A stretch of DNA of 64,000 nt from NCBI RefSeq assembly GCF_025398195.1, contig NZ_JAODNV010000004.1, forward strand, positions 62,001 through 126,000. Reading direction: 5' to 3'. This DNA comes from Chelativorans petroleitrophicus (lineage in GTDB: Bacteria; Pseudomonadota; Alphaproteobacteria; Rhizobiales; Rhizobiaceae). The translations under genes were made by a program, and so were the position numbers. Of the stretch, positions 28,064-50,879 are shown in pieces. How positions within the stretch are numbered: the first letter of the stretch is position 1; each line of letters opens with the position of its first letter. Below the pieces are notes generated by a model. It worked only from the letters and a program-made list of their open reading frames with translations. It made no database searches and had not been told where the DNA came from.

Positions 28064-28693
28064 TCAGGCGCGGTGAAGATCGCGAATCTCCAGAATCACG
28101 CCGTCGCCGACCTTGTCGCGGTGTTCTACCAGATCGAATCGCCAAGCGTCACTGCTTTCTTCCAATTCCCTTTGGAAATCCCTGCCTTTATGCAGGAGAG
28201 CGCGAGCGCCCTGCCTCATCCAGGGTTCTATCAACAGAAACAGACGTGGAAGCGGCGCTAGTGCCCGAGCCGTAATGATCTGCGGCGCGGGAACATCTTG
28301 ATAACAATCCTCGATCCGTCGGGGAAGTATGCGGGTCGGCGCCTTCAAGGCAGCGAGGGTCGTTTGAAGAAAGGCCGCTTTCTTGCGGTTGCTTTCGATC
28401 AGAGTCACTTGAGAATCAGAACGCCGCGAAATGAGGATAGCAATGATGGCGCCCGGAAATCCGCCACCGGAGCCGAGATCTAGCCAGCGGGACGCCTCGG
28501 GAGCCAACGGCATAAGCTGCGCGCTATCAAGAATGTGCCGGTCCCAAAGCCGCGGCAGCGTCGAGGGGGCGGCCAGATTGATGCGGCTTGCCCAGCGGAG
28601 AAATTCGCTCTGAAAGGCTTCCAAATCGGCCAATGTTTCACGTGAAACGGGGCCAGAAATGGCCTGCAACTCACGATAGAGGTCTTCTCTCAC
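28064..28693 (-). CDS. rsmG: 16S rRNA (guanine(527)-N7)-methyltransferase RsmG
   Basis: A 209-residue SAM-dependent methyltransferase that modifies G527 of 16S rRNA. The SAM loop LDLGSGGGFPGAIIA and the ESNRKKAAFL acceptor region are typical of RsmG (GidB). It starts with GTG at 28693, sharing one base with the mnmG stop, so translation is probably coupled. A parS-type site lies inside its 5' coding region (28634-28649), encoding PVSRET. Confidence 0.95.
   Translation of the reverse strand: MREDLYRELQAISGPVSRETLADLEAFQSEFLRWASRINLAAPSTLPRLWDRHILDSAQLMPLAPEASRWLDLGSGGGFPGAIIAILISRRSDSQVTLIESNRKKAAFLQTTLAALKAPTRILPRRIEDCYQDVPAPQIITARALAPLPRLFLLIEPWMRQGARALLHKGRDFQRELEESSDAWRFDLVEHRDKVGDGVILEIRDLHRA
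28634..28649. other. parS site 1
   Basis: TGTTTCACGTGAAACG matches the conserved bacterial parS 16-mer TGTTTCACGTGAAACA at 15 of 16 positions. It lies within the rsmG coding sequence, 0.6 kb from parA. Confidence 0.85.
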
Positions 28694-30614: not shown

Positions 30615-30630
30615 GGTTTCACGTGAAACC
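30615..30630. other. parS site 2
   Basis: GGTTTCACGTGAAACC, a perfect palindrome extended by A and T at the ends (30614-30631). It lies in the mnmG-mnmE intergenic gap and differs from the consensus 16-mer only in the outermost pair. Confidence 0.88.
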
Positions 30631-30648: not shown

Positions 30649-30664
30649 TGTTTCACGTGAGTCA
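30649..30664. other. parS site 3
   Basis: TGTTTCACGTGAGTCA. The left half is exact and the right half has two changes (AAACA to GTCA-type). It lies 18 bp from site 2 in the same gap. Confidence 0.7.
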
Positions 30665-30684: not shown

Positions 30685-30700
30685 TGTTTCACGTGAATCA
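30685..30700. other. parS site 4, overlapping the mnmE stop
   Basis: TGTTTCACGTGAATCA. The left half is exact and there is one change in the right half. Its last three bases are the mnmE stop codon read on the other strand, so coding and partition signals share sequence. Confidence 0.78.
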
Positions 30701-35694: not shown

Positions 35695-36228
35695 TCAAAA
35701 CGGCTTAACAATCACGAGTATGACGATCACCACCATCAGCAGGGCCGGCACCTCGTTGAGCATGCGCCAATGACGTGCTGGTTTAGTATTGCGGTCAGCC
35801 TCGAAGAGCCGCTGCGCCCGGGACAAATAGCCGTGTAGAGCCGAAAGAAGCAGCACCGCGGCTAGCTTGGCGTGAAGCCACCCGACCGCAAAACCAAAGC
35901 CTTTCCACGCCAGCCAGAAGCCGAACACCCATGAAGCGGTCATCGCGGGATTGATGATGAGGCGCAGAAGGCGCCGTTCCATGACCTTGAAGGTTTCTGC
36001 CTGGGGAGAACCGGCGCCTGCCTCGGCGTGATACACGAACAGTCGCGGCAGATAGAACATCCCCGCCATCCAGGAGATGACGGCGATCACGTGGAGGGCT
36101 TTGATCCAATTATATAGGTCGTCGGGCGCCACAAAAAAGAGGAGCGCCGTCAACACCGCGAAAATCAGCAACGCGATCGTCGCCCGCCGCGCCGCCTTCC
36201 GGCCTTCGTCACTTGCTTCCGCGCTCAT
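35695..36228 (-). CDS. hemJ: Protoporphyrinogen IX oxidase HemJ (UPF0093)
   Basis: A 177-residue membrane protein with about four or five helices. [20 protein letters not shown] carries the conserved haem-ligand His and the family signature, and a second conserved His lies in LHAKLA. HemJ oxidises protoporphyrinogen IX to protoporphyrin IX in bacteria that lack HemG and HemY. Its ATG overlaps the hemE stop by 4 bp, so the two late haem steps are translationally coupled. The N-terminal 20 residues are an extra charged tail. Confidence 0.92.
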
Positions 36229-37274
36229 GCTCTTGCGTCCCGCACCTGCCTTATCATCGCTTCCACGTGTTCAAGCGGCGTGTCGGGTGTAATCCCGTGG
36301 CCGAGATTGAAGATTAGGGGCCCCGATCCCAATACCCTCAGAATGGCCTCGACGCCTTCCGAAAGCGCCCGGCCTCCCGCCACAAGGCGCAAGGGGTCCA
36401 GATTCCCCTGCACCGCGCCTTCCTTCTGCAACCGCCGCGCATGTTCGAGCGGCACCGTCCAGTCAAGACCCAGCGCTGTCACGCCGGTTGCCTGGCGATA
36501 GCCCGATAAGAGCGCGCCCGCCCCTTTCGGGAAACCGATGATAGGAACTTGCGGGTGTTTTTTCTTCACCCGGCGCACGATTTCCGCGACGGGCCGCACG
36601 CACCAGCGATCAAAGCTCGCCTCATCGAGTATCCCGGCCCAGGAATCAAAGATCTGCACGGCGTCGACACCGGTCTCGATCTGGCGGATCAAATATTCAG
36701 CCGACCAGGCGGCGATCACGTCGAGAAGCCGCGCGAAGGCCTCGGGTGACCTGTATCCGAAAAGCCGCGCGGGCGCCTGATCTGGCGTTCCCCGGCCTGC
36801 CACCATATAGGTGGCGATCGTCCATGGCGCGCCGCAAAAGCCGATGAGCGCCGTTTCGGCAGGCAGCTCGTGCCGCAGGCGTCTCACCGCTTCATAAACC
36901 GGCGCCAGCCTCTCATGGAAGGACGAGCCATCTAGCCCATCTATGTCCCTTTCTAAAATCGGCGTCATCAGAGGGCCCGCGCCTTCTTCAAAACGCAAAT
37001 CCCGGCCGAGCGCATGCGGCACGACGAGAATGTCGGAAAACAGAATGGCGGCATCGAAACCGAAGCGCCGGATCGGCTGCAGCGTCACTTCGACGGCGAG
37101 ATCGGGATCGTAGCACAGGTCAAGGAACCCGCCCGCCTGTTTGCGTGTTTCCCGATACTCAGGGAGATAGCGTCCGGCTTGCCGCATCATCCAGATGGGC
37201 GGCGGGAAGACGGTCTTTCCCTTCAGTACGTCGAGGAATTTTCCGGCTACCACGTTCAGGACCTCTCGATTCAT
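36225..37274 (-). CDS. hemE: Uroporphyrinogen decarboxylase
   Basis: A 349-residue TIM-barrel enzyme converting uroporphyrinogen III to coproporphyrinogen III. The N-terminal [17 protein letters not shown] block holds the active-site Arg residues. IGFCGAPWT and the late [10 protein letters not shown] loop are also present. It is the first gene left of the replication origin and is transcribed away from it, the arrangement known from Caulobacter and Rickettsia. Start ATG 37274. Confidence 0.97.
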
Positions 37275-37646
37275 AAAATTTAAAGGAATCCAAAAGAGGA
37301 TTCTGATTCTAAGAGTCTGTTTGGAACGTGGATTAAATCCTGTCCACGCCGGCGCCGTTCGCGCGAGCGCGCATATTGCCGCGCTTTTGTGAAATCCACT
37401 GGCAAGAATAACGGGGAAAGCGCCGGATTACCATGAGCATTCAGCGCTTTGGCCTTGTCCATCTGTCGGTGGCATTCGAGCACTTATGTGGAGAAAATAC
37501 CTTTTTCCCGCAATTCTCTACAGCCGGATTTCCTTGTCCATCACGTGGCGGGATGTGGATGAAAGACCTGCTTTTCCATTGCCGCAGGTCTCGTCACGCC
37601 AAAGCCGGCGCGCTATCAACAGCTCTCCACAGCGGGAGCTAAAGAT
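37275..37646. other. oriC: Chromosomal origin of replication (oriC)
   Basis: The 372-bp gap between divergent hemE and ppsR. The hemE side is AT-rich (37270-37340) and contains five GANTC (CcrM methylation) sites within 50 bp: 37268, 37286, 37299, 37305 and 37313. DnaA-box-like 9-mers lie on the ppsR side: TGTGGAGAA 37487, TGTGGATGA 37554 (each 8 of 9 to TGTGGATAA), several 7 of 9 (37514, 37613, 37623), and TTATGCACA reversed at 37646 over the ppsR start. Alphaproteobacterial origins are known next to hemE, and the flanking genes here point away on both sides. The short plus-strand frames inside it are not convincing genes. Confidence 0.82.
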
Positions 37647-38456
37647 GTGCATAAGCCGCAGAGCTTCTTTCATCTGCATCTGATTTCCGATGCCACAGGC
37701 GAGACCCTTCTGGCGGCGGGGCGGGCTGCCGCCGCGCAATACAAGAACGTCCGCGCGATCGAGCACATCTACCCGCTTGTGCGCACGCAGAAGCAGCTTG
37801 AGAAAGTGTTCGATAATATCGACCGGCAGCCCGGCATCGTGCTCTACACGATCGTAGATCAGACGCTGGCGCGCTTGGTCGATGAACGCTGCGCCGCCAT
37901 GGGGCTGCCTAGCGTGTCGGTGCTCGAACCGGTCCTGAATGTCCTGCAGTCCTATCTCGGCCCGCCGGCGGGCCGGCGGGTTGGAGCCCAATATGTGCTT
38001 GATGCGGACTATTTCCGCCGGATCGACGCCCTCAATTTCACGATGGAGCACGATGACGGGCAGCTTCCCCAAGACGTCGATCAGGCGGAGATCGTGCTGG
38101 TGGGGATTTCACGTACCTCAAAGACGCCGACCAGCATTTATCTCGCCAATCGCGGCATCAGGACCGCCAACATACCCATCCTTCTGGACATGCCCCTGCC
38201 GCAGGAACTAGCGCGTGCGCGCGGTCCGCTGATCGTGGGCCTCGTCGCCTCCGCCGAGCGCATCGCGCAGGTGCGGCGGAACCGGGTTCTGGGCGCGGAA
38301 TGCAGCTCCTATACTGATCGGTCAGCCATCACCCAGGAGCTTGAATATGCGCGCCAGCTCTGCAACCGGCATGGCTGGCCGATCATCGACGTTACGCGGC
38401 GCTCGATTGAAGAGACCGCGGCCGCCATACTGGCCTTACGCGGCAAATCCTGGTGA
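37647..38456 (+). CDS. Bifunctional kinase/pyrophosphorylase (PPDK/PEP synthase regulator, DUF299)
   Basis: A 269-residue DUF299 protein. [14 protein letters not shown] is the N-terminal signature and [16 protein letters not shown] the P-loop. It switches pyruvate phosphate dikinase or PEP synthase off by ADP-dependent phosphorylation and on by Pi-dependent removal. The start is GTG at 37647, inside a DnaA-like box. Its position as first gene right of the origin matches the hemE-oriC neighbourhood of other alphaproteobacteria. It leads a run of plus-strand genes to dnaQ. Confidence 0.93.
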
Positions 38457-50229: not shown

Positions 50230-50879
50230 TGCGCGTCGCTATCATCGACTACGGCTCTGGCAATCTGCGCTCCGCCACGAGGGCGTTCGAGCGGGCAGCG
50301 GCGGAGGCTGGGATTTCCGCTGAGATCGATCTGACGGACGATCCCGAACGAGTCCGCACTGCGGACCGCATCGTGCTTCCCGGGGTCGGCGCCTATGCGG
50401 ACTGCCGCGCCGGTCTCGATGTCGTTCCGGGCCTCACCGAGGCTATCGAGGAGGCGGCCATCTGCAAGGGGCGTCCCTTCTTCGGCATCTGCGTGGGAAT
50501 GCAGCTCATGTCCGAGCGCGGGCTCGAAAAGACGGTGACCAGGGGTTTCGGCTGGATCAAGGGGGATGTGAAGGAGGTCACGCCCAACGATCCCGCGCTC
50601 AAAATTCCGCAGATTGGGTGGAACACGATTCACGTGAAACATTCTCACCCGCTGTTTGAGGGCATTCCCACCGGGCCGGACGGGCTGCACGCCTATTTCG
50701 TGCATTCCTACCATCTCGATGCCACGCGCGAGGAGGATGTGTTGGCCACTGCAGACTATGGCGGTGAGATCACCGCCGCCGTTGCGCGCGGCAATCTCGC
50801 TGGCACGCAGTTCCATCCGGAAAAGAGCCAGACGCTGGGCCTGGCTCTGATCGCCAATTTTCTGAGGTGGAAGCCATGA
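50229..50879 (+). CDS. hisH: Imidazole glycerol phosphate synthase glutaminase subunit HisH
   Basis: A 216-residue class-I glutamine amidotransferase. The nucleophile Cys is in [11 protein letters not shown], and the His/Glu pair is in QFHPEKS. It supplies ammonia to HisF, which should act in the same complex but is not encoded in this run. A parS-like sequence (14 of 16) occurs in the coding sequence near 50626, probably by chance. Confidence 0.96.

Follow-up and report, generated by a model that had tools for sequence, protein, structure and literature searches.

A predicted chromosomal origin between hemE and ppsR carries a conserved, GANTC-bearing triplet array that resembles a DnaA-trio unwinding element

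The window, by which we mean the whole 64-kb stretch of DNA analysed here, lies on a 315,491-bp contig (C34) of a 3.96-Mb draft genome in 69 contigs. Within it, two genes that are transcribed outward, as the first-pass annotation had described (hemE on the minus strand, ppsR on the plus strand), enclose a gap of 372 bp:

36225–37274, minus strand: hemE, uroporphyrinogen decarboxylase (PF01208, Pfam), start codon at 37272–37274
37275–37646, no strand: intergenic gap, predicted chromosomal origin (from skew, parS-like sites, boxes and instability)
37647–38456, plus strand: ppsR, kinase/pyrophosphorylase (PF03618, Pfam), GTG start

A gap between divergent hemE and ppsR is the setting of the alphaproteobacterial hemE-side origin, and we take ppsR to be the RP001-type gene of such origins. 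The hemE–ppsR arrangement was found in 79 of 80 named loci and in 181 of 185 further loci, all of which were chosen by their ppsR; the exceptions, dropped for want of a hemE match, are L080 in the first set and L110, L118, L190 and L191 in the second. The order is represented by 40 loci from 130 genomes with a match and the class by 27 loci from 99 genomes with a match, with one family member (L087, from G114) tallied under the order. A ppsR match was absent from 33 of the 151 family genomes. No Rfam family reached its gathering threshold in the window.

A skew profile had been proposed in the first-pass annotation as a check on an origin at this position. On contig C34 the cumulative GC skew falls to a broad minimum at 100–115 kb and then rises, and the gap, at 99.5 kb, lies within about 16 kb of this minimum, the turn being one seen on a single 315-kb contig. 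In a relative (G379), from which 20 stretches amounting to 400 kb of 4.84 Mb were sampled, the skew is noisy: it averages +0.022 after the motif and −0.016 before it, with the wrong sign in 2 of 10 stretches of the half after the motif and 3 of 10 of the half before. Five parS-like sites occur in the window, and none in shuffles:

28634–28649, plus strand: parS-like site, 1 mismatch
30615–30630, plus strand: parS-like site, 2 mismatches
30649–30664, plus strand: parS-like site, 2 mismatches, with GAGTC at 30659
30685–30700, plus strand: parS-like site, 1 mismatch, with GAATC at 30695
50626–50641, plus strand: parS-like site, 2 mismatches, with GATTC at 50627

Since three of the five contain a GANTC site (30659, 30695, 50627), methylation may extend to partition sites near the origin. 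By nearest-neighbour energies, the block at the hemE end of the gap ranks as the least stable DNA of the window at 100 bp and as the second least stable at 50 and 80 bp:

37247–37346, no strand: the 100 bp of lowest stability in the 64-kb window

DnaA-like boxes are concentrated in the same region, as in a hemE-side origin:

37327–37335, minus strand: DnaA-like box, plus-strand CGTGGATTA, 7 of 9, 13 bp from the array described below
37487–37495, minus strand: DnaA-like box, 8 of 9
37514–37522, plus strand: DnaA-like box, 7 of 9
37554–37562, minus strand: DnaA-like box, 8 of 9, six columns invariant in a 26-sequence alignment
37613–37621, plus strand: DnaA-like box, 7 of 9, with TTATCCACA at the aligned position in several Mesorhizobium rows
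37623–37631, plus strand: DnaA-like box, 7 of 9
37646–37654, minus strand: DnaA-like box over the ppsR start, 8 of 9

These seven boxes within the 436 bp of 37225–37660 compare with 0.79 on average, and 5 at most, among 146 window tiles, the tiles of the gap included. The first-pass annotation had listed two boxes at 8 of 9 and several at 7 of 9; there are three of the former, while the latter part stands with four. It had also placed a box over the ppsR start, which is present at 37646 (minus-strand TTATGCACA, fully matching TTATNCACA), and had seen no perfect box, and TTATCCACA is indeed absent from the gap. Its suggestion that initiation relies on weak boxes fits the family, where 76 of 115 gaps lack a perfect TTATCCACA, the other 39 containing one or two. 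The skew turn, the box cluster, the parS-like sites, the unstable DNA and the conserved gene context together give good support to the original reading of this gap, which is very probably the chromosomal origin. Origins beside hemE are a known kind; what was found here is a conserved, GANTC-bearing triplet array followed by a short spacer.

The GANTC sites are the following:

37268–37272, no strand: GANTC site 1 (GATTC), over hemE codons 1–3
37286–37290, no strand: GANTC site 2 (GAATC), away from a triplet centre
37299–37303, no strand: GANTC site 3 (GATTC), its adenine the centre of triplet 5, phase by position
37305–37309, no strand: GANTC site 4 (GATTC), its adenine the centre of triplet 3, phase by position
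37313–37317, no strand: GANTC site 5 (GAGTC), at the array/spacer junction, with an equivalent in 105 of 112 anchored family genomes

The adenines of sites 1 and 2 are thus off the triplet centres, and site 1, because it overlaps the first codons of hemE, falls just outside 37275–37646. A recount bore out the reported five sites in 50 bp (starting at 37268, 37286, 37299, 37305 and 37313, and spanning 37268–37317). The chance rate of one per 256 bp that had been set against them is not the local rate, since GANTC is depleted in the window, with 148 sites (one per 432 bp) against a mean of 319 in dinucleotide shuffles. Five sites within 50 bp arose in none of 300 fourth-order Markov simulations and in one of 300 second-order simulations, the latter being over-supplied with GANTC (mean 242 sites). 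Among the 612 sites of the contig this is the tightest five-site run, the next tightest spanning 195 bp. The compactness that had been singled out is therefore real, but dense GANTC is common to the relatives: in a set of 80 rows, made up of the window and 79 named loci that are mostly from Mesorhizobium and Chelativorans, the maximum within about 60 bp was three sites in 58, four in 14, five in 6 and two in 2. Among 115 family loci it was five or six in 8, four in 32, three in 23, two in 36, one in 15 and none in 1, with more distant family members mostly having one to three per 60 bp. By these counts, the relatives share the feature and the window is among its denser cases. On the minus strand of 37286–37303, two of the sites build an inverted repeat, GAATCC-N6-GGATTC, which is terminator-like and lies in the hemE leader (one found against a shuffle mean of 0.6).

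Three further elements complete the block:

37290–37313, plus strand: triplet array CCA AAA GAG GAT TCT GAT TCT AAG, candidate DnaA-trio-like unwinding array
37314–37317, plus strand: 4-bp spacer AGTC
37318–37326, minus strand: degenerate DnaA box, plus-strand TGTTTGGAA, 5 of 9 against TGTGGATAA, counted by eye

The plus-strand order is thus array, spacer AGTC, TGTTTGGAA and then CGTGGATTA. In an alignment of 26 gaps, the sequence around CTGATTCTAAGAGTCTGTT at the hemE end hardly varies. The 21-mer core of this stretch is single-copy in the genome even with up to 3 mismatches allowed, and its 15-mer occurs exactly once in each of 37 of the 151 family genomes, against none for the reversed control. 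Of 30 such 15-mer loci that were read out, 28 have hemE and ppsR on the two sides, and the remaining two lack a ppsR match in one case and a hemE match in the other.

To compare the block across the family, we anchored 115 loci and left out three that scored under 7.5 (L274, L295 and L300), giving 112; removal of 9 duplicates left 103 distinct sequences for triplet composition. Shared descent was handled through a single hemE tree of 91 tips, the other 21 of the 112 having no hemE protein over 250 aa. Counted outward from the spacer, triplets 1–5 have A or C at the centre at frequencies of 0.85, 0.96, 0.57, 0.81 and 0.59, with T frequent at the centres of triplets 3–5. The outer bases are mostly fixed as T (0.66–0.99), or as G (0.93) at the inner edge, the exception being triplet 3, where the first base varies (G 0.50, A 0.33, T 0.17). 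On the tree, third positions of triplets 2–5 changed 0–2 times, first positions 2–15 times and centres 5–19 times. A coding cause for this periodicity was ruled out, since the block stands out of frame with hemE (the distances divide 42/36/34 modulo 3).

A generic trio detector built on five NAN triplets was uninformative: on the plus strand it flagged 18 of 115 loci, where 18.5 were expected, and on the minus strand 41. Outside the family the anchor scores were mostly low, and counts were kept to the family. In 11 loci, mostly of Mesorhizobium (L034, L038, L039, L045, L047, L048, L051, L057, L060, L077 and L078), about 85–115 extra bases separate the block from the extrapolated hemE start, and in L022 even more, while the distance from the block to ppsR is unchanged. 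In other alphaproteobacterial groups another array type, of TNG triplets, was seen close to hemE in 6 of 26 class loci (L120, L132, L135, L136, L141 and L142) against 0.08 expected, with none on the other strand.

The layout of the block resembles that of a DnaA-trio array, and we compared it with the published rules for such arrays, which are a box with at most two mismatches 0–16 bp from the array and at least three consecutive A-centred triplets, the most common array-to-box spacing in that survey being 13 bp (PMC8287927). In the window, CGTGGATTA has 2 mismatches and lies 13 bp from the array, in accordance with the first rule. The triplets outward from the spacer read AAG, TCT, GAT, TCT, GAT, GAG, AAA and CCA, so that the A-centred run next to the spacer is only 1, short of the second rule; with C accepted as a centre, the run is 8, counted by eye. 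In B. subtilis, C can stand for the central A because its amino group is read by Asn187 (PMC10721633). Across the family, a box of at least 7 of 9 adjoins the array in 24 of 112 genomes, a random position in the gap having one in some 18% of cases; three or more A-centred triplets in a row occur in 6 of 112, and both rules fail in at least 82 of 112. Within the named set, a 7- or 8-of-9 box occupies the 13-bp position in 7 of 79 loci (low-scoring row L022 kept).

A reading of the A and C centres through Asn187 would fit the array, but is weakened by the DnaA of this genome (L337), which has Trp at the aligned position. Trp stands there in all 49 family proteins examined (L369–L417), with Ala at 190. 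The 45 class proteins (L340–L368 and L418–L433, two of them from the order of the window) have Tyr in 35, Phe in 6, His in 2, Asn in 1 and Val in 1. The sole carrier of Asn, G239, has an array that ends AAG TAG TAG, and the six class loci with TNG arrays belong to carriers of Tyr (four), His (one) and Phe (one). These few cases hint that the reader residue of DnaA and the array type may change together. Elsewhere in the genome, a second short frame of 151 aa with a DnaA C-terminal domain (L338, G000:C9:92098-92298) possibly encodes a DnaA-related regulator.

Our main reading, to which we give a probability of roughly 70%, is that the gap combines the origin with a DnaA-trio-like unwinding element at its hemE end. 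DnaA would load on weak boxes scattered through the gap and open the DNA at the hemE end, where the T-rich plus-strand array (~37290–37313), the 4-bp spacer and the two abutting degenerate boxes would act as the unwinding element; judging from the sequence pattern, the array block is the probable site of opening. The five GANTC sites inside or beside this element would bear CcrM methylation, so that the first DNA to melt would be methylated on both strands before S phase and on one strand only just after firing. Such marks would slightly tune melting or DnaA contact, an on/off switch being less likely.

The genome encodes a CcrM-type protein (N6_N4_Mtase and RAMA domains, Pfam) and a gene of the GcrA family. 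The RAMA domain is present in 151 of 151 family genomes, which leaves no contrast by which the presence of CcrM could be related to the junction site. CcrM control of origin firing had been cited in the first-pass annotation as known in Caulobacter, but the published data do not show a need for it. Caulobacter cells deleted for ccrM have a normal DNA-content profile, and while excess CcrM gives extra chromosomes, initiation control is intact after ccrM deletion (PMC3973325); in Agrobacterium, both depletion and excess of CcrM altered ori2, and the DnaA-type ori1 was not visibly changed (PMC11514494). Since the more distant members of the family mostly have one to three sites per 60 bp, Agrobacterium may have a similar number. 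For the clade with dense GANTC, a modest effect of methylation is a tentative proposal, at about one chance in three.

GA(G/C)TC stands at the junction in 105 of the 112 anchored family genomes and in 77 of 79 loci of the named set; along the 91-tip tree, 11 changes fall on its N, all of them swaps between G and C, as against 3 on G, 2 on A and none on T or C. This pattern fits selection on the CcrM site together with a preference for G or C in the spacer. The family anchor, however, was chosen as the best match to patterns that include GA[G/C]TC, which biases it toward the junction site and toward fixed letters there, and the neighbouring GT at +5/+6, with 1 and 0 changes, is equally fixed, so fixity is not special to GANTC. 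Within triplets 1–7, the GANTC adenines stand at triplet centres in 108 of 109 cases in the family and in 143 of 143 in the named set, a phase that is largely forced because a T-rich TCT array hardly permits another. This last point favours a rival explanation, by which the GANTC density is a by-product of TCT/GAT array composition (which yields GATTC) and methylation there does nothing, as do the dispensability of CcrM for initiation control in Caulobacter (PMC3973325) and the 43 of 112 relatives that have no GANTC adenine in triplets 1–7 (the junction site is missing from 7 of 112). Against it stand the G/C flips of the junction N beside an unchanging T and C, the depletion of GANTC across the window, and the sequence GAT at triplet 3 followed by TCT in 40 of 40 cases, though shared descent confounds that count. 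We consider this explanation unlikely, if not very much so.

Another explanation takes the GANTC block for a promoter or leader of hemE under CcrM/GcrA control and places unwinding elsewhere in the gap. The end of the array lies 22–87 bp upstream of the extrapolated hemE starts, a position suited to a promoter, and a GcrA family gene is present. In Caulobacter, GcrA binding depends on methylation (PMC3667746), and hemE transcription has a bearing on replication (PMC8959179). A sigma-70-type scan, though, found only one promoter-like sequence, at 37540–37513 on the minus strand, and none over the block; the triplet pattern persists, by eye, in relatives that keep no −10-like hexamer, and the block ranks among the least stable stretches of the window. 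We hold this account improbable. That the gap is not the origin and initiation takes place at dnaA or elsewhere is very improbable indeed, because although the skew of this 69-contig draft comes from contig C34 rather than the whole genome, with a broad minimum there and noise in G379, dnaA itself sits on a different contig, next to a frame that by eye looks like dnaN, whereas the skew turn, DnaA-like boxes and parS-like sites are at the hemE–ppsR gap.

We therefore keep to the reading of an origin with a trio-like unwinding element at its hemE end, that is, a known kind of origin with a variant-looking unwinding element and a conserved methylation site, for which a role of methylation is a candidate. 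A bolder version, which we hold to be improbable, is that in this rhizobial family DnaA (Trp, Ala) and the array (T-[A/C/T]-T) changed together with CcrM sites built in, such that methylation licenses melting and hemimethylation makes the origin refractory. If it were true, the methyl groups would sit on N6 of the triplet-centre adenines, providing a once-per-cycle device at the unwinding step itself. For the question of how CcrM methylation bears on alphaproteobacterial initiation, this clade offers a better testing ground, because a CcrM site borders the probable melting site and as many as six sites fall within some 60 bp. The apparent alphaproteobacterial link between DnaA residue 187 and triplet type would, in turn, make the trio code testable by comparison.

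The 13-mers of the E. coli origin begin with GATC. Like E. coli oriC, with its Dam and SeqA, the gap has adenine methylation sites enriched in the origin and overlapping initiator sites (GATC in that case, PMC4285127), with another enzyme and another motif. The origin GANTC sites also recall Agrobacterium ori2, of a repABC chromid, where timing is CcrM-dependent (PMC11514494, PMC6090056), although that origin depends on RepC and its GANTC sites are partly in promoters. The likeness to Caulobacter crescentus and other hemE-side alphaproteobacterial origins lies in the hemE flank, the weak DnaA sites, the AT-rich part, the several GANTC sites and the presence of CcrM and GcrA in the genome. Unlike Caulobacter, whose origin has five CtrA boxes (PMC8959179, PMC3973325), the region 37201–37700 has no full CtrA site (TTAA-N7-TTAA), as would mark a CtrA-controlled origin, and TTAA occurs there only at 37280 and 37333; a further difference is that the GANTC sites here form a compact block in a T-rich triplet array, the Caulobacter features compared being those of published descriptions. 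In the open-access literature we found no paper linking GANTC sites with DnaA-trios, subscription work on the Caulobacter and S. meliloti origins being outside the scope. As in the DnaA-trio unwinding systems of B. subtilis and others (PMC8287927, PMC10721633), the array lies 5′ of its boxes, which have the orientation of TGTGGATAA on the strand of the array, with a 4-bp spacer, 13 bp to the better box and a first triplet of AAG or TAG. It differs from them in that the centres alternate between A and C (with T also in relatives) instead of being uniformly A, that the box adjoining the array is weak in most relatives, that DnaA has Trp and Ala in place of Asn187 and Ile190, and that methylation sites are embedded in the array itself.
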